63,035 bases of DNA from Moorena sp. SIO3I8 (GTDB lineage Bacteria; Cyanobacteriota; Cyanobacteriia; Cyanobacteriales; Coleofasciculaceae): positions 1 through 63,035 of the forward strand of contig NZ_JAAHHW010000012.1 of NCBI RefSeq assembly GCF_010692325.1, in the 5' to 3' direction. Below, one piece after another: positions 21,534 to 49,101 of this stretch; the first letter of the stretch is position 1; each line of letters begins with the position of its first letter. The notes beneath the pieces are model-generated. The model was not told the origin of the DNA. It searched no databases and saw nothing but the letters and a program-made list of their open reading frames with translations. Made by a program: the position numbers and the translations under genes.

Positions 21534-22121
21534 ATGACACTAATACCACTTCGTAAGGCGGTCGAACTTACGGGACTCTCTAGGAACACTCTTCGGAAGT
21601 ATGCAGACAATGGCACGATTAAATGCGAGCGAACCCCAAGTGGTTACCGGCTCTTTGATACAGAAAGCCTGCTCAGCCTCGGAAAAAGGGAATCAAGGCA
21701 GCCAGCAACTATCTGCTACTGTCGAGTCAGTAGCAGCAAGCAAAAAGACGACCTCGTCAGGCAAGTCGCCTATCTGCACTCCCTCTTTCCGGAAGCGGAA
21801 ATCATTAAAGACATCGGCTCAGGGCTCAACTACAAAAGGAAGGGGCTTCGAGCCATACTGGAACGAATCGTGCGAGGAGATCAGCTCACAATTGTTGTTG
21901 CCTGTCGAGACAGACTTACCCGGTTTGGGTTTGAAATCATTGAGTACTTGGTCGGTCTCAACGGTGGAAAAATCCTGGTTCTCGACAACCCTGAAAGCTG
22001 TCCAGAATCAGAACTTACCGCAGATCTTCTCTCCATCATTCACGTCTTCTCTTGCCGCGTCCACGGACTCCGAAAATACGGGAAGAAAATCCAAGAAGAT
22101 TCGAGTGTTCCTAAGCCCTGA
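21534..22121 (+). CDS. IS607-family serine recombinase TnpA
   Basis: 195 aa. An N-terminal MerR-like helix-turn-helix (LRKAVELTGLSRNTLRKYAD, then GYRLFD) precedes a resolvase domain with catalytic Ser in YCRVSSSKQKDDL and the conserved CRDRLTRFGFEII. IS607 TnpA is a serine recombinase that moves the element through a circular intermediate. The ORF looks complete, and its 3' end overlaps the start region of tnpB, as is usual for IS607 elements. Confidence 0.9.
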   Translation: MTLIPLRKAVELTGLSRNTLRKYADNGTIKCERTPSGYRLFDTESLLSLGKRESRQPATICYCRVSSSKQKDDLVRQVAYLHSLFPEAEIIKDIGSGLNYKRKGLRAILERIVRGDQLTIVVACRDRLTRFGFEIIEYLVGLNGGKILVLDNPESCPESELTADLLSIIHVFSCRVHGLRKYGKKIQEDSSVPKP

Positions 22122-39861: not shown

Positions 39862-41805
39862 ATGTATCTGATGAGTTCTAAGCCATTAATCCAAGATTCA
39901 GAACCCTTGGAAAGTCGATTAAAAGAAATTCCCCTAGAACCAGGGATTTATTTAATGCGTGACCATAGCGCTAGTATTATTTACATCGGCAAATCCCGAA
40001 AATTGCGTACGCGAGTCCGTTCCTATTTCCGTGACTCCCAACCCTTGAGTCCTCGCATTGCAATGATGGTGGCACAGGTTACTGATATTGAATTCATCGT
40101 AACCGATACGGAAGCGGAAGCCCTAGCGCTGGAAGCGAATCTGATTAAGCAGCACCAACCTTACTACAACGTACTGCTCAAGGATGATAAGAAGTATCCC
40201 TATGTTGTCATTACTTGGTCAGAGGATTATCCCCGTATCTTCATTACCCGTAAGCGGCGCATGGGGAATAAACAGGATAAATACTATGGTCCCTACGTCG
40301 ATGTCAAGTTATTGCGCAATACTTTAGCTCTGGTCAAACAGCTTTTCCCCATCCGGCAACGCCCTAAACCTCTGTTTAAAGACCGTCCTTGCCTTAACTA
40401 TGATTTAGGTCGTTGTCCTGGTGTGTGTCAAAAACTAATCACACCGGAAGAGTACCGTCAAACCATCCAGAAAATCGCGATGGTTTTTCAAGGGCGTACT
40501 GGGGAACTAATTGAGATGCTGACGGCCAATATGGAACAAGCAGCAGAATCCCTTAACTTTGAGCTAGCAGCGCGGATTAGGGATCAGATTACTGGACTTA
40601 AGTCCCTGAGTACAGACCAAAAAGTAGCCTTACCTGACGATACTGTATCACGAGATGCGATCGCACTAGCGGCTGATCCCAAACATGCTTGCATCCAACT
40701 ATTTCAGATCCGTGCTGGTCACTTAGTCGGGCGCTTGGGATTTTTTGCCGATGTAGCCCCTCAAGGGAATGGGCCAATAGAACTCGGAGCCATTTTACAA
40801 CGGGTTTTAGAAGAGCATTACCAAACTGCTGATGCTGTAGAAATCCCTACAGAAATTTTGGTGCAACACCCGTTACCCGATGGGGAGATGTTGGCTGACT
40901 ATTTGAGCGTGCGCAAAGGTCGAAATGTGACTATACTCACCCCCCAACGGCAAACCAAAGCTGAACTGATTGAAATGGTCAAGCGCAATGCTAACTATGA
41001 ACTGGAACGCACCCAGCGATTGGTTGACCGCAACACCAAAGCCATGGAGGATTTAGCTAACATTCTTGACTTACCGGATTTACCACGGCGCATAGAAGGG
41101 TATGACATTTCCCACATCCAGGGCAGCAATGCAGTGGCTTCTCAGGTAGTATTTCTAGATGGCACACCAGCCAAGCAGCACTACCGTCACTACAAGATCA
41201 AAAATCCTAATATCACTGTCGGTCATTCCGATGATTTTGCTAGCCTTGCTGAGGTGATTCGCCGTCGCTTCAAAAAAAGTCAACTCGAACCAGAACTAGC
41301 AGATAGTATTAGCTCAACAATCAACAATCAACACTCAACAATTAACAATCAACAATCAACACTCAGAAAAGATTGGCCTGATTTGGTAATGATTGATGGC
41401 GGAAAAGGACAGCTGTCAGCAGTTGTAGCAGTATTGCAAGAGCTAAATTTACAAGAAGAAGTGCCTGTGGTAAGCTTAGCAAAACAGTACGAAGAACTAT
41501 TTTTACCAGGAGAGCCATTGCCCCTAGCCACTGATCCCGAGCAACCAGGGGTGCAACTTTTGCGCAGGGTTAGAGATGAGGCTCATCGCTTTGCGGTTAA
41601 TTTTCATCGGAAACAAAGAAGTAGTCAGTTACATCGTTCCCGTTTAGATGAGATTCCTGGATTAGGATTTCAGCGGCAAAAACAGCTATTGGCTCACTTT
41701 AACTCCATTGATTATATTCGCAACGCATCGGTTAAACAGCTTGCAGAAGTACCAGGCATTGGTTTGCGTTTATCTCAGGAAATTTATCACTACTTCCACC
41801 CATAA
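39862..41805 (+). CDS. uvrC: UvrABC system protein C
   Basis: 647 aa. The N-terminal GIY-YIG nuclease ([20 protein letters not shown]), a UVR motif region ([15 protein letters not shown]), the C-terminal RNase H-like part ([28 protein letters not shown]) and terminal HhH ([27 protein letters not shown]) are all seen. UvrC makes the dual incisions of nucleotide excision repair. A stretch of [17 protein letters not shown] (about residues 476-493) is encoded by a CAACAAT/CAACACT heptamer run, 41310-41370, inserted in frame. ATG 39871 is a second possible start. Confidence 0.96.
41310..41370. repeat. CAACAAT heptamer tract inside uvrC
   Basis: About eight 7-nt units of CAACAAT/CAACACT/TAACAAT encode a Ser/Thr/Asn/Gln-rich insert, in frame, in the UvrC RNase H-like part just before the VMIDGGKGQ block. 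Confidence 0.8.
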
Positions 41806-41989
41806 ATAGACCAGACCTCTTGAGAAAGTCTATTTTATCACCACTGCTAGACTTTGAGAGGTCAGCAAACAGAGGAAAATGTTAGACAAAAACTGAGGCA
41901 ACAACTCAAACAAAAACTGAAACAATCTAGTCTAATCTGTCAATTAGCCCGAAGATATAAACCTTGCGGTATCAATCTCTAAGTAGGTT

Positions 41990-42207
41990 GACTCTGTAAT
42001 TAGTTTGAATCAAGGGACTTGCAGATTTTGCGTTCCCGTAGCGGCTCCAAGGGAGCACCGTTTTCTGTGGACTTTCTTTATGTGGGGATACTCTTAAACC
42101 GTCATTAATCGGGATAAACCCGTACAAAACGGTCAAGGTGCATTTTATTGTGGTCTAAGTGAGGAATGGTCATACAGCAATTGGAGTTAAGCCTGCCATT
42201 CATCTAT
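41990..42207 (-). ncRNA. Candidate 3' guide-RNA (omega-RNA-like) region of the TnpB-like gene
   Basis: TnpB guides are normally transcribed from the 3' end of tnpB and the element's right end. The 220 nt after the TnpB-like stop have no gene, and include the dispersed GTAGCGGCTCCAAGGGAGCAC repeat (about 42036-42060; hairpin CTCC/GGAG) which could be structured. No boundary or scaffold can be fixed by eye. Confidence 0.25.
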
Positions 42208-43677
42208 TTAGACGTTCCTGGCATCCCGACCAGGAGTTGCTTGAAAGCCTGAGCAAAGCTCATGTTTGGAGTCAAGCCAACCAAGCTCAACTGCATCTAG
42301 CAGACTCAGCCCCATTCCTTCCAAGAAACGCGCGGTACGGCGCAACAATACTGCCTGCACCTCGGTCTTGTTCATGTACCGGGTTATTTCCTTATCCGTA
42401 CCTCTGTTAAGGATATTTTTGGCAGCATTGTGGTCAGACTGTAACACGACCCCATTAAACCTGGTGAAATTGTCCCCGTTTCTTTTGCCCAATAGGGTTC
42501 CAGTCACGGAGTCAACTTGCGACGTGTAACTAGGCTGAACTTCTGTTACAACCGACCCAGTCCAATTAGCCCATTTTTCTAAGGAGTCCCGCATTTGACC
42601 CTTCATCCAGCTATTAAGCTTGCGAGACATGGCTTTTGACTGGCGTTTATTTCGGATTGGTTGTGTTAAATCTTCTGCAAAGACTTTTAGTGCTTCTCCC
42701 TTGAAAAGAGACTTTGAAGCCGCTCCTATAATTGCCGTTAGTTCTGATTGATTTTTTCTGTAACGGCGATTTTCTGTTTTTCTGGTTAGGTTATTTTTGA
42801 ATATTCGAGCCGACTTAGCTGGGTCTAATTTTTCTAGTTTTCTATGGAGCGCCCAAAGCTTGCCCCTGTTCCGGTTCTTTGCACATATACGATCAGATTT
42901 TTTAGTGGTTACTTTTCCTAGTTCTTTTCCGTGAGCCTGACCGTCTGAGTCATAGAAAGCTTCAGTATATCCCTTGTCTACCCCAATGGCTCGGCGGTCG
43001 GGAGGAATCTCTACAGTCCCATAGTCTACTAGGAAATAAATCTCAATTTTTTTCAGAATTTGATTGTATATCAGTCTAATCTGGCCTTTTATTTTCCGAT
43101 TAGATCTAACAACTATTTTGTTCCTTTTTCCTCTTTTTAAACCAGCTAACTCCAATTGATAGGTATTGCGGGAGAGCCTTTTGCATTTATATCCTCCCTG
43201 TTGATAAATTATCTGATTTTTGACCCAAGAATGTCCCCGCTGAAACTCTTTTCTGATCAGTCGGTGAAGGAGTGGACTGTCCAGGAAGGCTAAGGTCTTA
43301 AGCTGTTTACAAAGTTCTTTTCTGGTCTTTTGGTTTTCTTTCCCGGGAAACCTTTTGTAAATCTTTTTGACTACCGCCTCAGTACAGGCCGCTTGGCTCG
43401 CTGTAATGGCCTTAGCTACATCGCTGACAGCCCATTCCATTAATTTAGAAGGTAGTCCTAAGGATTCAGGAGTCCTAAAACTCCTAACTTCTGGGTAAGC
43501 TTTTTTCCAATCAAGTCCCCAATGACTGATACTGCCTAGCTTATTGTAGGATTCAGACCTGACGATGCCCAATTTCTTCATCGTGGACAACAACTCAAGT
43601 TCAACCGACTCAGTCATCCCCACTACAGGAACAATCTGGGTTGATATTTTCTTGGTCACTCCTACTTTTTTGGGCAT
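42208..43677 (-). CDS. TnpB-like RuvC nuclease lacking zinc-ribbon cysteines
   Basis: 489 aa from ATG 43675-43677. RuvC residues are seen as IGVDKGYTEAF (D234), VFAEDLTQP (E335) and LQSDHNAAKNIL (D415), numbered from this ATG. So the nuclease triad is intact. The zinc ribbon that normally sits between the second and third motif (TSQ-C-x2-C-G) is replaced by TSQVDSVTGTLL, with no Cys pair. No tnpA or CRISPR array is adjacent. TnpB proteins are RNA-guided DNA nucleases; TnpB lineages without the zinc ribbon are ancestors or relatives of some type V effectors, so this one deserves classification. The gene lies between uvrC and the RND operon as a stand-alone. Confidence 0.8.
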   Translation of the reverse strand: MPKKVGVTKKISTQIVPVVGMTESVELELLSTMKKLGIVRSESYNKLGSISHWGLDWKKAYPEVRSFRTPESLGLPSKLMEWAVSDVAKAITASQAACTEAVVKKIYKRFPGKENQKTRKELCKQLKTLAFLDSPLLHRLIRKEFQRGHSWVKNQIIYQQGGYKCKRLSRNTYQLELAGLKRGKRNKIVVRSNRKIKGQIRLIYNQILKKIEIYFLVDYGTVEIPPDRRAIGVDKGYTEAFYDSDGQAHGKELGKVTTKKSDRICAKNRNRGKLWALHRKLEKLDPAKSARIFKNNLTRKTENRRYRKNQSELTAIIGAASKSLFKGEALKVFAEDLTQPIRNKRQSKAMSRKLNSWMKGQMRDSLEKWANWTGSVVTEVQPSYTSQVDSVTGTLLGKRNGDNFTRFNGVVLQSDHNAAKNILNRGTDKEITRYMNKTEVQAVLLRRTARFLEGMGLSLLDAVELGWLDSKHELCSGFQATPGRDARNV

Positions 43678-43987
43678 CGTCAAATCTGAGTCAATTACTT
43701 TAAGGATACTCTAGCGCTAGCAAAATGTCAATGTCCATTTTATGATATTAAATACCGATTTATACCTATTTTTAGGGGTTTAATTGCTGGGCTGAATCGG
43801 TGACTAAATTATCTGATTATCTATTATACATCTTATTTTATTAAAAATCAAACATGGATAGACAGTATCAGCTCAGGTCCTAATACTTTTTTAGTTAACA
43901 ATTTTTAAGTTATATTAAGAATGAAGCCACAAAAATTATCCTTCTGCAACAAAACTACCCAACACTACCAGTAACAGGGGAATAACC
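43678..43987. other. AT-rich intergenic region upstream of the TnpB-like gene and RND operon
   Basis: 310 nt of divergent promoter space. TATTTTTAGGGGTTTAATTG and other AT-rich stretches are seen but no gene or clear operator. It may contain the TnpB element's left end. Confidence 0.4.
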
Positions 43988-45676
43988 ATGACCCGAAACA
44001 CTTTAGATGAACACAGATCTCAGCGGAATGGCTCTGGCACTATCACTGAGCCTAATCACCAACAGAGATCTCAGCGGAATGGCTCTGGCACTATCAGTCA
44101 GCCAGATCAGCAACCTAATCACCAAGCTAATCACCAACAGGAGGATTCAGCCTCATCATTACCCAGATCCGGGACTAGTCAATCCCAAAACTCCTTGACA
44201 TTAGGAGCAGGTACTTTAGTGATGGCCATGGGTATAGGCATTATGCTGACCTTGCTAGGAATGCGATTGATCGGGACAGCTCCAAAGGTTCAAAAAACCG
44301 ATTCCCCTGCTGAAACTGTTCAAACCCCTGGGGCTGTCCCCTCTGCTGAAACCCCTGGGGCTGTCCCCTCTGCTGTACCTGCTCAAACTGTTACGGTGGC
44401 AGACGTAAAAACCACCACAGTTAACCGTACCCTAGAAGTTATTGGTAGTGTTGCTGCTTTTGAGGAGATTAGGGTCAAGTCCCAAGCAACGGGTTTACAG
44501 ATTAAACAGGTACTGGTTAGAGAAGGGGAATTTGTCAAGGCCGGACAAGTAATGGCACGCCTAGATAATGCTGTGCTTCAGGCACAGTTAGCTCAAGCTC
44601 AGGCAGCAGTTGCCCAAGCTGAAGCCCGTTTAGCAGAACTGAAGGCGGGGTCACGCTCAGAAGAAAAATCCCAAGCTAGAGCTCGTCTAGACCAAGCTAG
44701 AGCTCGTCTAAGGCAGGCCGAAGCTAGTATTCCTAGACAGATTGACCAAGCAAAAGCCCAAGTGGCATCTGCTGAAGCCCAGTTGAGTCTAGCTAAACGT
44801 CGCTTCGAGAGCCAGAAAAAATTGATTGCCGAGGGAGCCATCTCCCAAGACCGCTATAATGAGGTGGAAAGTCAATATTTCAGTGCTCAAGCGAATTTAT
44901 CTGAAGCGCAACAACGCCTTGAGCAAGCACGAAACACCAACAGCCCAGAAATTGCCCAGTTAGAAGCCGCTGTAGTAGAAGCTCAACAGCAGCTCCAGCA
45001 AAGATTGGCTGGTTCCCGTCCAGAAGTAATTGCTCAAGCTCAAGCTCAACTGGCTAGAGAGAAGGCACAAGTCCAGTTAGTGATGGCGCAACTAAAGGAT
45101 ACCCAAGTGGTGGCACCAGTCAGTGGCAAAGTAGCCACTAGAAATGCCCGTGTCGGTGATATTACCTCTTCGTCAGAAAAACTCTTTACCATTATCGAAA
45201 AGGGGCGTTTGGAATTGTTATTAAGGGTACCGGAAACCCAACTGTCCCAAATTCAGATTGGGCAACCAGTAGAAATATCCTCTAGAGGAGATAGCAGCCT
45301 GAAGCTTTCTGGAACAGTACGAGAAATTGACCCGATAGTTGATCAGCAGTCTCGTCAGGCTGTGGTCAAAGTAGATTTACCCAATTCCGGTAGCTTGCGA
45401 CCAGGAATGTTTTTACAAGGCTCTATCACCACCTCATCCACTACCGGTCTAACTATACCATCGAAAGCAGTCTTGCCCCAACCTGACACTAGTGCAATCG
45501 TTTACCGACTCGAAGCAGATAACACTGTTAAAGCAAAGCCAGTGGTAATGGGAGAACTCCTCCCTGATGGGCAAGTAGAAATCAAGAGTGGTTTAGCCCC
45601 AAGCGATCGCATTGTAGTCAAAGGTGCTGCTTTCCTCAAAGACGGCGATCGCGTCCAAGTCTTAGAAACTCAATAG
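43988..45676 (+). CDS. RND efflux membrane fusion protein (HlyD/AcrA family)
   Basis: 562 aa. The N-terminal 60 residues contain a duplicated QRNGSGTI segment with His/Gln-rich spacers (nucleotides about 44015-44145), before one membrane anchor (about residues 75-92). The periplasmic body has a split lipoyl/barrel-sandwich domain (VRVKSQATGLQIKQVLVREG; VAPVSGKVATRNARVGD) enclosing a long Ala/Gln/Glu coiled coil (about 195-380). It should link the inner-membrane pump encoded next (47 nt downstream) to an outer-membrane channel. No channel gene in the window. AGGGGAATAACC precedes ATG 43988. Confidence 0.9.
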   Translation: MTRNTLDEHRSQRNGSGTITEPNHQQRSQRNGSGTISQPDQQPNHQANHQQEDSASSLPRSGTSQSQNSLTLGAGTLVMAMGIGIMLTLLGMRLIGTAPKVQKTDSPAETVQTPGAVPSAETPGAVPSAVPAQTVTVADVKTTTVNRTLEVIGSVAAFEEIRVKSQATGLQIKQVLVREGEFVKAGQVMARLDNAVLQAQLAQAQAAVAQAEARLAELKAGSRSEEKSQARARLDQARARLRQAEASIPRQIDQAKAQVASAEAQLSLAKRRFESQKKLIAEGAISQDRYNEVESQYFSAQANLSEAQQRLEQARNTNSPEIAQLEAAVVEAQQQLQQRLAGSRPEVIAQAQAQLAREKAQVQLVMAQLKDTQVVAPVSGKVATRNARVGDITSSSEKLFTIIEKGRLELLLRVPETQLSQIQIGQPVEISSRGDSSLKLSGTVREIDPIVDQQSRQAVVKVDLPNSGSLRPGMFLQGSITTSSTTGLTIPSKAVLPQPDTSAIVYRLEADNTVKAKPVVMGELLPDGQVEIKSGLAPSDRIVVKGAAFLKDGDRVQVLETQ

Positions 45677-45723: not shown

Positions 45724-48700
45724 ATGTCCTTCCACGTCTCCTCTTGGTCAATTAAAAATCCGGTTGCTACTCTGGTCATGTTCCTGGTTTTAGGAATAGT
45801 TGGTCTATTCTCCTTTAACCAGTTGGGAATTGATCAGCTTCCCAATATTGATCTTCCAGCGGTGATGGTTACTGTCACCCAGCCAGGGGCAGGACCGGCA
45901 GAACTGGAATTCCAGGTAACCAAAAAAATTGAAGATGCTGTTGCTAGCCTTGGAGATATTGACCAAATCTCCTCCACCGTTACTGATGGCAGCTCCAGCA
46001 CTATTATTAATTTTGTCCTGGGAACTGATAGCAATCAGGCCACTAATGATGTACGCAATGCGGTAGCTCAAATTCGCCAAAGTTTGCCCCTAGATATCAA
46101 CGAACCTATTGTCAGGCGGTTAGAATTTGCCGGGGGTTCAGTCATGACCTATGCGGTAGCTTCTGACAAACGCTCGCTGGAGGAGTTGAGTGACCTAGTT
46201 GACCGGAAAATTAGCCGTGATCTGGTGAATGTACCGGGAGTTGCCCAAATTGATCGACTCGGAGGAGTTGACCGGGAAATTCGAGTTGACCTTGACCCGG
46301 CTAGATTACAAGCCTTTGGTATCACTGCTACCCAAGTTAATGACCAAATTCGGACTTTTAATATTAACTTACCCGGTGGTCGCGGTAACATCGGCGGCGC
46401 TGAACAGAATGTCCGGACTCTCGGAAGTGCCAAGACCGTGGAAGAGTTGAAAAACTACCGTATTGTCCTCCCGGATGGCGCAAATGTTACCCTTTCCAGT
46501 TTGGGAAAGGTTACAGACGGCTTTGGTGATCTTAGGAAAGCTGCCTATCTCAATGGGGAGTCAGTGGTAGCCTTTTCTGTACTGCGGAGCAGTGGTAGCA
46601 GTTTAGTCTCGGTGGAAGAAGGGGTTAGCAAAGCTGTTGAACAACTAAAAACTACCCTCCCAGAGGATATCGAACTGCGCTTGATCTTCACCCGTGCTGA
46701 TTCAATCCGTGAGTCCTACCAAGCAACCATCGATTCCCTGGTTATCGGTTCACTACTTACCATACTCACCGTGGGGATATTTCTAAGAAATTGGCGGGTA
46801 ACTCTAATTACAGCAGTAGCTCTACCTTTATCAATTATTCCCACCTTTTTGGTGATGAAATCCCTAAACTATACCCTCAACGGTATGACCCTACTGGGTT
46901 TAGCCCTAGCAGTAGGGAACTTGGTCGATGATGCCATTTGCATGATTGAAAATATCGACCAGCACTTGGATATGGGTAAGAAACCCTTGAAAGCAGCTTG
47001 GGATGGGGCGCGGGAAATTGGTTTAGCTGTAGTAGCGACCACAGCAACTATTGTCGCGGTATTTATTCCTGTAGCCTTTATGGGGGGTATCCCTGGTCAA
47101 TTCTTCCAACCCTTTGGAGTAACCGTTGCTGTATCTACTATGTTTTCCACCCTAGTAGCTACAACAATGACACCGATGCTGAGCGCTTATTTGCTCAAGC
47201 CAAAATCAAAAGCATTGAAGGTTGACAAGTTGAAGGTTGAAAGTTGGCAAAATAACCATCAACCCAATAACCTTCAACCCAATAACCTTCAACCCAATAA
47301 CCTTCAACCCAATAACCTTCAACCCAATAACCTTCAACCCAATAACCTTCAACCCAATAACCTTCAACCCAATAACCTTCAACCCAATAACCTTCAACCT
47401 GCAACCGAACAACCTGCAACCGAACAACCTGCAACCGAACAACCTGCAACCGAACAACCTGCAACCGATAAGAGCCGGCGCATACAACCTTATCGAGGTC
47501 TATTAACCTGGGCGTTGAAGCACCGGATTACCACGATGTTGATAGCTGTAGCTTTTTTCATCGGTAGCTTGCAGCTTGTACAGTTTATTCCCAAGGGTTT
47601 GTTTAGTAATGGGGATACTGGAGTCAGTACGATATCCATTGAGCTGCCACCGGGGTCTGAGCTGAATGAAACCATAGAGGTCATTCAAGAAACAAATCGG
47701 TTGTTGCAGTCAAACCCAGCTGTGGAAAATGTTCTGGCCAGTGCTGGAGATGATGGTGTAAATTCTGCTATTGTATACGCCAAACTCTTACCCAAAGACC
47801 AACGGGAACTCTCTCAAAGAGAATTTGGCCAGGAGATGCGTGAGGATTTCCAGAAAATACCTGGCGCGAGGGTTAGATTCCGTAGTCAAGGGGCTCGAGG
47901 CTCTAACCAGGATTTATCAATTATCCTCAAGAGTGAAAATGGTGAACTGCTGTCCCAAACCGCCCAAGCTCTAGAAAAACAGATGCGTCAAATTCCTGGT
48001 TTAGTGGAAGTTACCTCTAGTGAAAGTCTAGTTAAACCAGAAATTGTGATTGTACCTAACCCTGCCCGTGCTGCAGATTTAGGAGTGTCTGTTCAAGCGA
48101 TCGCACGCACTGCCTCTTTAGCCCTAATTGGAGATCTTGAGTCAAATCTGGCTAAATTTGACTTACCTGACCGACAAATTCCGATTCGTGTTCAACTTGA
48201 CCCAGCATCCAGGGATGACATCGAAACCCTTAAAAATCTGCGGGTTCCCAGTCAAAATGGTACTTTAGTACCGATTGCTGCCGTAGCTGATATCCGTTTA
48301 GGGAGTGGACCTGCCCAGATTGACCGCTTTAATCGTTCTCGTCAGGTGTCTTTGGGAGGCAACTTGCAAGGGATTTCTCTAGGAGATGCGATGGACAAAG
48401 TCAAAGCCCTACCTGCCATGAATCCCCTACCTCCTGGAGTTTCCGAGGAACCAGCTGGGGATGCCGAGATTATGCGAGACATATTCAGTCGCTTTTTCAG
48501 CGCCTTAGGGCTAGCAGTGCTGTCCATTTATGCCATTCTGGTGCTGTTGTACAACAGTTTTCTTTATCCCTTTGGGATTTTGGTGGCTTTACCCCTATCC
48601 ATCGGTGGAGCCTTAATGGGACTGTTGATAGGCCAGAAGGAATTGGGACTGTTTGCCCTGATCGGAATAGTATTACTAATGGGATTGGTGACCAAAAATG

Positions 48701-49101
48701 CCATTCTTTTGGTAGACTTTGCCTTAGCCCATCAGCAAGAAGGGATGCCCCAGTTTAAAGCAGTGATTCAAGCTGGAGTCAGTCGCTTGCGACCGATTTT
48801 GATGACCTCCGTCTCCACCGTTGCTGGCATGATTCCCATTGCCTTGGAATGGGGAGCAGCCGGTGAAGTTCGTAGTCCGATGGCTATTGCCGTGATTGGA
48901 GGATTTACCACTTCTACTCTGCTAACCTTGGTGGTGGTGCCGGTATTATTTACCTATGTCGATAACTTAGTTCGTTGGACAAGAAAGACCCTATTTGGAA
49001 GTAACACTCAAGATTCCCAAGACCTAGTAGAGGTTGAGGTAGAGCCTGAGCAGTATTTGAGCAATGGTACTTCTGTTGCTGCTAGTAATGGTAAATTCTA
49101 G
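45724..49101 (+). CDS. RND efflux transporter (AcrB/HAE1 type) with a pentapeptide-repeat loop
   Basis: 1125 aa. The start (SFHVSSWSIKNPVATLVMF), GPAELEFQVTKKIEDA, GLALAVGNLVDDAICMIEN (TM4 proton relay Asp-Asp) and GLVTKNAILLVDFA are standard for resistance-nodulation-division pumps, proton-driven inner-membrane exporters. Residues about 509-582, in the cytoplasmic loop between the two repeated halves, are about 10 copies of QPNNL and five of QPATE from a 15-nt tandem repeat. Otherwise the length is near usual (1030-1070 aa) plus the insert. Cotranscribed with the fusion protein. A 19-bp hairpin follows at 49162. Confidence 0.93.
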   Translation: MSFHVSSWSIKNPVATLVMFLVLGIVGLFSFNQLGIDQLPNIDLPAVMVTVTQPGAGPAELEFQVTKKIEDAVASLGDIDQISSTVTDGSSSTIINFVLGTDSNQATNDVRNAVAQIRQSLPLDINEPIVRRLEFAGGSVMTYAVASDKRSLEELSDLVDRKISRDLVNVPGVAQIDRLGGVDREIRVDLDPARLQAFGITATQVNDQIRTFNINLPGGRGNIGGAEQNVRTLGSAKTVEELKNYRIVLPDGANVTLSSLGKVTDGFGDLRKAAYLNGESVVAFSVLRSSGSSLVSVEEGVSKAVEQLKTTLPEDIELRLIFTRADSIRESYQATIDSLVIGSLLTILTVGIFLRNWRVTLITAVALPLSIIPTFLVMKSLNYTLNGMTLLGLALAVGNLVDDAICMIENIDQHLDMGKKPLKAAWDGAREIGLAVVATTATIVAVFIPVAFMGGIPGQFFQPFGVTVAVSTMFSTLVATTMTPMLSAYLLKPKSKALKVDKLKVESWQNNHQPNNLQPNNLQPNNLQPNNLQPNNLQPNNLQPNNLQPNNLQPNNLQPATEQPATEQPATEQPATEQPATDKSRRIQPYRGLLTWALKHRITTMLIAVAFFIGSLQLVQFIPKGLFSNGDTGVSTISIELPPGSELNETIEVIQETNRLLQSNPAVENVLASAGDDGVNSAIVYAKLLPKDQRELSQREFGQEMREDFQKIPGARVRFRSQGARGSNQDLSIILKSENGELLSQTAQALEKQMRQIPGLVEVTSSESLVKPEIVIVPNPARAADLGVSVQAIARTASLALIGDLESNLAKFDLPDRQIPIRVQLDPASRDDIETLKNLRVPSQNGTLVPIAAVADIRLGSGPAQIDRFNRSRQVSLGGNLQGISLGDAMDKVKALPAMNPLPPGVSEEPAGDAEIMRDIFSRFFSALGLAVLSIYAILVLLYNSFLYPFGILVALPLSIGGALMGLLIGQKELGLFALIGIVLLMGLVTKNAILLVDFALAHQQEGMPQFKAVIQAGVSRLRPILMTSVSTVAGMIPIALEWGAAGEVRSPMAIAVIGGFTTSTLLTLVVVPVLFTYVDNLVRWTRKTLFGSNTQDSQDLVEVEVEPEQYLSNGTSVAASNGKF
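47253..47467. repeat. 15-nt tandem repeat within the RND pump gene
   Basis: About ten copies of AACCTTCAACCCAAT (encoding QPNNL) then five of CAACCTGCAACCGAA (QPATE). The unit is a multiple of three, so copy-number change keeps the frame. Confidence 0.9.

Follow-up and report, generated by a model that had tools for sequence, protein, structure and literature searches.

The window analysed here, the whole stretch of 63,035 nucleotides at positions 1 to 63,035 of contig NZ_JAAHHW010000012.1 of Moorena sp. SIO3I8, carries a tnpB-like gene on its minus strand, as cargo of a mobile element with sharp ends. The features of this locus, all on the minus strand, are the following.

42208..43677 (-): tnpB-like gene of 489 aa, ribbon-less, with RuvC residues D234/E335/D415 (open reading frame list, profile matches, family alignment)
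42087..43789 (-): element body, running from the left tip (43789) up to 42087, the base next to the right crossover (copy alignments)
43790..43791 (-): left crossover dinucleotide CC, with the host G at 43792 (copy ends, empty sites)
42085..42086 (-): right crossover dinucleotide CC, with which the predicted guide-RNA scaffold ends (copy ends, empty sites, pseudoknot test)
43678..43789 (-): left end, containing short palindromes and lying upstream of tnpB (copy alignments)
42085..42262 (-): right-end RNA region (reRNA/omegaRNA scaffold) aligned in A2 (covariation in 37 sequences)
42216..42235 (-): first helix of the right-end RNA, within the 3' end of the gene (covariation)
42223..42227 (-): pseudoknot loop GGGAT, partner of ATCCC at 42085-42089 (99.4% of cells paired)
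42085..42089 (-): pseudoknot 3' strand ATCCC, ending at the guide start and including the crossover (pseudoknot test)
42065..42084 (-): predicted guide, the first 20 host bases past the right crossover, of assumed length (element end and the IS607 precedent in the accessible text of PMC10711439)

Results

The tnpB-like gene and its product

Read from a TTG start, the open reading frame spans 42208-43683 on the minus strand; the ATG at 43677 is the start used by the family and yields a protein of 489 aa. As a preliminary description of the locus had proposed, this protein is TnpB-like and its RuvC triad is complete in the alignment, with the residues lying in VDKG (D234), AEDL (E335) and SDHNAA (D415). 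Profile searches gave a divided answer as to its kind: the Pfam TNB model (PF07282) matches at 35.7 bits, above its cut-off of 26.3, whereas the NCBIfam guided_TnpB model scores 85.7 bits (E 3.7e-24), under its cut-off of 100 bits. The IS607_TnpB model is absent from the NCBIfam profile matches of the protein, and no close solved structure was found by sequence, the top profile match being the Cas12f 9nzq (E 1.1e-5).

The gene had also been described as stand-alone. This holds insofar as the open reading frame list contains no tnpA between the neighbouring genes (39862-41805 and 43988-45676), but the gene sits within a multi-copy element with defined ends. The statement that no array is adjacent agrees with our data, since no direct repeat of 20 bases or more occurs in 41800-44000 and the locus thus has no CRISPR array.

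A mobile element with matching crossover dinucleotides

Including both crossovers, the tnpA-less element occupies 42085-43791. Its own genome harbours nine near-full-length copies, the one in the window included (82-100% protein identity), together with fragments. Alignment of the copies, which the preliminary description had suggested as a way to define the element ends, places sharp boundaries at 42085 and 43791, reading G-YC-NN-GCAAT on the left and GTATC-YC on the right. Identical YC dinucleotides are present at both ends in 31 of the 35 copies with left and right ends called (15 CC and 16 TC). The four non-matching pairs belong to L087, in which the third base differs (GTA vs TC), to L055 and L102, in which the left tip is unaligned, and to L169, where the contig ends. 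A further copy outside the 35, L108, has AC at both ends by eye. When the joined flanks of six copies were searched against four genomes of the genus, its own included, five of the six had, among the loci returned, a counterpart in another genome that matches across the junction and has one YC. Of these five empty sites, four are clean, and that of the window copy is weaker (80.6% identity with gaps).

Read from the copy ends and the empty sites, the exchange is a matching-dinucleotide crossover as described for IS607 (PMC10711439, accessible text). Moreover, a host-adapted gene, an option raised in the preliminary description, was rejected on account of the nine near-full-length copies and of the empty sites elsewhere in the genus. 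An A precedes the G in 65% of 31 sites, chosen to read G-N-C, so that AGYC may be guessed as the TAM.

Covariation and a pseudoknot in the right-end RNA

We found 51 right ends, from which 11 were removed (fragments, same-place duplicates and poorly aligned ends); 37 of the remaining 40 were aligned, L009, L055 and L092 being omitted. In these 37 sequences RNAalifold predicts 35 pairs, 15 of them changed on both sides. Paired cells amount to 99.1% over the 35 distinct rows, vs 91.6% in shuffles and less than 46% when slid. The loop of the first hairpin can pair with the five terminal bases of the right end in 99.4% of cells, again over 35 distinct rows, forming a predicted pseudoknot. The loop reads GGGAT or GAGAT, with GTGAT in L110 and GTGAC in L108, and the right-end variants that pair with it are ATCCC, ATCTC, ATCAC and GTCAC. 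The pair formed by the first crossover base is GC in 19 rows, AU in 13, UA in 2 and GU in 1, and is unbroken in 35/35 distinct rows. Sixteen pseudoknot cells changed on both sides, and 0/500 shuffles equal either that number or the covariation score; two lesser measures are weak, as 13/500 shuffles reach 2 double-change pairs and 59/500 the number of pair types.

On its own, the window sequence 42085-42240 folds with a z of -2.68. Known Rfam RNAs are limited to one tRNA at the gathering threshold in the window, with none at E up to 1 in 41950-43900. Altogether, the covariation and the pseudoknot are the strongest evidence in this study suggesting that the system works, or did until recently. 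In ISXfa1, a pseudoknot has been shown to be required (PMC10711439, accessible text).

Relatives with tnpA and signs of recent movement

No tnpA-bearing copy with these element ends was seen in the draft genome of the window. In Moorena bouillonii (L093/L184) and Symploca (L111/L187), an IS607 serine-recombinase tnpA lies directly upstream of a ribbon-less tnpB; the NF033518 model scores 179.4 bits on the former (L184) and 172.3 bits on the latter (L187), the cut-off being 110. In L093 this tnpA sits between the same kind of left end and tnpB. Of 105 loci scanned, 20 show a TnpA match of at least 100 aa in the 1.3 kb upstream; the 105 also count copies lacking tnpA, loci truncated on their upstream side and ribbon-bearing TnpBs. 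The arrangement with tnpA upstream of tnpB is also annotated in plasmid records of Thiodictyon, Vibrio and Acinetobacter.

Two genomes of the genus carry L004 and L103, 98.6% identical to each other, at different sites. Three sites of G086, a genome from another family of the same order, carry copies identical over 2199 bp, tnpA included. These are more distant from the window copy, with the upstream tnpA at a 31% match and ends that read GCC on the left and GTATC-CC on the right. Because of the upstream tnpA and the near-identical copies at different sites, we conclude that the window copy is a tnpA-less derivative of the IS607 type with relatives that moved recently.

Two further observations concern the genome of the window. 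Some 20 kb off in the window, at 21534-22121, lies another IS607 tnpA (NF033518, 170 bits), followed by a stretch resembling a broken tnpB; its product is less than 42% identical to the TnpAs found beside ribbon-less tnpB. In addition, L012 on contig C496 encodes a TnpB relative (46% identical), and the start of its frame resembles, by eye, the HTH start of an IS607 TnpA.

A conserved sequence in place of the zinc ribbon

The absence of the CxxC pairs, noted earlier from the letters alone, was borne out by the sequence alignment: no C4 zinc finger was found in the TNB domain of the window protein, and its four cysteine positions are taken by the non-cysteine residues D389, T392, R406 and N408/G409 (by eye against the C4-bearing L097). 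An alignment of 11 sequences, with identities to the window protein as low as 38%, shows no variation at many positions of the ribbon-less stretch, and the absence of the ribbon thus exceeds chance. A motif, TSQxDSxxGxLLGxRxGDxF....GxVLQxDxNAA, recurs with small variations in relatives from cyanobacteria, gammaproteobacteria, one alphaproteobacterial plasmid, a Helicobacter felis prophage and viral contigs. Judged from these alignments, the ribbon is replaced by conserved sequence rather than merely degraded. The protein hence departs from an ordinary TnpB with a degenerate ribbon, though the Pfam TNB model still matches.

In the accessible text of PMC3627910, the C4 zinc finger of TNB is part of a "strictly conserved" TnpB motif. 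In the ISDra2 structure the TNB domain is distant from the TAM-distal heteroduplex (PMC10097598, accessible text), which makes loss of the ribbon plausible, if not proven. No ribbon-less TnpB lineage is described among the literature titles and abstract starts searched; the main survey (Altae-Tran 2023) lies outside that coverage and may describe one, and the novelty of the lineage in print is uncertain.

Within the stretch, one arginine alternates between two positions. Among 96 non-redundant sequences, all fitting the motif expression (numbering of 406 and 408 from alignment A1), arginine stands at 391 in 56, always together with D408, and at 406 in 40; none of the 96 has both. The third cysteine position retains a cysteine (C406) in 26 of them. 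Outside this set, L279, L280, L248 and the G086 type have one arginine each by eye, and L275, a member of the clade, has neither and carries cysteines at 389 and 406. On a tree lacking the columns concerned (genus plus G004; 39 of 40 rows, with L087, which has no readable stretch, excluded), the arginine type switches 9 times, and the 6 supported independent pairs all go opposite ways (p 0.031). These repeated switches could also stem from gene conversion of a short block, a reading on which the low dS of the TNB codons (0.33) bears. The arginine at 391 or 406, on either former zinc knuckle, is a likely substitute for the metal.

Phylogeny and distribution of the ribbon-less clade

The protein tree comprised 69 rows, 3 of 72 having been removed beforehand, and excluded the TNB columns. 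It recovers a clade with 100/100 support and a long stem, in which 38 rows lack the ribbon and 2 have C4; the other 29 ribbon-bearing rows fall outside it. This accords with the suggestion, made in the preliminary description, of a lineage distinct from canonical TnpB. Two long-branch ribbon-bearing rows adjoin the clade, and their placement is unsure. The two C4 rows within it, L097 and L098, are near-identical TnpBs of one genome (G018) with the full C4. One loss, with the ribbon strictly absent ever after, does not quite fit, as this pair is nested in the clade and the ribbon label needs 2 changes on the 69-row tree. Their C4 may reflect a regain, retention or several losses.

Relatives were collected from several sources. 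A pattern scan of genome contigs gave 78 loci, among the best 80 of 90 kept, and leans to ribbon-less matches, as its single pattern lies within the ribbon-less stretch. Viral contigs contributed 36 loci, 12 of them with the ribbon-less motif, and the search for relatives also returned 29 plasmid records and 1 phage record. A whole-genome profile search, which used no DNA pattern and a profile built from ribbon-less rows, found the clade in at least 8 of 292 genomes of the phylum, its own included, at E 1e-40 or better; with up to 5 candidates scored per genome, such counts are lower bounds. In the 11 further loci from this search whose TNB stretch was read, all are ribbon-less.

Selection, loss of E335 and alternative readings

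From the start to RuvC-III, the median dN/dS is 0.073 (36 sequences; finite values for 525 of 630 pairs), a rough figure because dS is saturated (median 1.4); the TNB stretch, with low dS, gives 0.23. Of 42 copies retrieved from five genomes, four of the genus and one of a sister genus, 10 (L006, L081, L082, L085, L086, L089, L090, L092, L095 and L118) carry a 27-nt dispersed repeat (GTTCGCGWAGCGTGGCC...) that replaces the codon of the RuvC-II glutamate, E335. On the tree, the repeat at this codon occurs in frame in 8/40 rows and needs 7 changes, at least 5 of them forced by supported branches. As the repeat sits at the E335 codon, some copies of the family are probably nuclease-dead, and two copies that both carry it are still at a dN/dS of 0.18. 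These losses could mean that RNA and DNA are still bound but poorly cut, the lineage being an RNA-guided binder, such as a TldR-like repressor, or heading there. We consider this unlikely for the clade, in which D234, E335 and D415 are invariant in alignments of 37 and 30 rows, and E335 is kept by the window copy and 32/40 tree rows. Moreover, a second repeat site, seen in five of the loci scanned (L008, L086, L087, L092 and L099), lies away from the active-site codon, and the repeat is thus not aimed at catalysis alone.

The low guided_TnpB score and the other copies broken by introns, stops or repeats would also fit a decaying TnpB relic with an eroded ribbon and a gene no longer functional. 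Such decay is quite improbable in view of the conservation of the replacement motif across phyla, the constrained coding change, the covarying right-end RNA and the three identical copies of a relative in G086. Finally, the subterminal palindromes at both element ends could suggest an IS200/IS605-type element (Y1 transposase), with G-YC as left target motif and ATCYC as right cleavage site, but this origin was rejected as extremely improbable, given that left and right bases match copy by copy, the empty site has a single YC and a serine recombinase lies upstream in relatives.

Insertions and repeats were also noted in their own right. Group II intron matches (RF00029), antisense to tnpB, were found in L083 (2943-3019), L085 (1468-1544) and L117 (2991-3067), sharing one place near the tnpB C-terminus in copies of two genomes; the sequence of L082 has the same C-terminal change as these copies, the intron scan having covered other copies. 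In the window, at about 47200-47500, in-frame repeats (QPNNL and EQPAT in translation) lie inside a transporter-like gene (45724-49101).

Discussion

Our analysis, based on sequence comparison, points with good probability to an RNA-guided nuclease that belongs to an IS607-type element and has a TNB domain functioning without zinc. The gene in the window would encode a TnpB-type DNA nuclease as cargo of a tnpA-less derivative, which a serine recombinase acting in trans may move by exchanging the YC dinucleotide at a G-YC target. The 3' end of the tnpB transcript would fold into a structured RNA, in which the first hairpin loop pairs with the last five right-end bases, crossover included, and the host bases past the right end would serve as guide. 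After excision, the re-closed site, with a TAM of the AGYC kind and a match to the guide, would be cut, and repair from the sister copy would restore the element. The idea behind this is that cleavage retains the element through repair from a sister copy. The TNB domain is presumed to fold zinc-free, with the arginine at 391 or 406 as likely metal substitute.

In its widest form, the proposal is that a widespread, active branch of IS607 nucleases has turned its zinc site into an arginine staple that swaps knuckles, and has locked a crossover base into the pseudoknot of the guide RNA, a new dinucleotide then needing a matching loop change; we see this broader version as evenly poised. A zinc-free lineage, if true, would reveal what the TNB domain really needs. 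Likewise, from natural compensation between crossover base and pseudoknot loop one would learn how site choice by the transposase and guide-RNA function stay compatible.

Among known systems, Cas12 nucleases (type V CRISPR) would be expected with an array, and the window locus is without one. TldRs have a degenerate RuvC triad. All three RuvC residues are kept in the window copy, whereas, as in TldR, copies that have lost a RuvC residue occur in its family. Like ISDra2 TnpB, the window protein has a RuvC D-E-D, a TNB domain between the last RuvC parts and a C-terminal extension, but ISDra2 TnpB holds zinc via C331, C334, C351 and C354, and the window protein has no cysteine there (PMC10097598, accessible text). 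It shares the IS607 association and cyanobacterial hosts with Pro-Fanzor and Fanzor, which in the accessible text of PMC10711439 have DPG and a shifted glutamate; the window protein has DKG, and its E335 lies 54 residues before D389. The expressions used in that study to find Fanzor-like TnpBs required CxxC twice, so the ribbon-less clade could not surface in that search. With the zinc finger treated as part of the TnpB definition, a search expression that demands CxxC misses the clade.

Among the closest parallels is the IS607-family TnpB, for example that of ISXfa1 (PMC10711439, accessible text), with which the system shares a serine-recombinase tnpA upstream in relatives, a matching-dinucleotide crossover and a pseudoknotted right-end RNA whose scaffold takes in a right-flanking base. 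Relative to ISXfa1, the crossover base and the loop covary here in nature. The window copy departs from IS607 elements in having no serine recombinase tnpA in the element, a gene present in its relatives. Unlike IS607-family TnpBs, with which it was compared as a family rather than with the TnpB of ISXfa1 itself, the window protein is without the C4 zinc finger. It is thus best viewed as a ribbon-less TnpB variant rather than an ordinary member, apparently IS607 TnpB-like and without one feature that defines TnpB in print.
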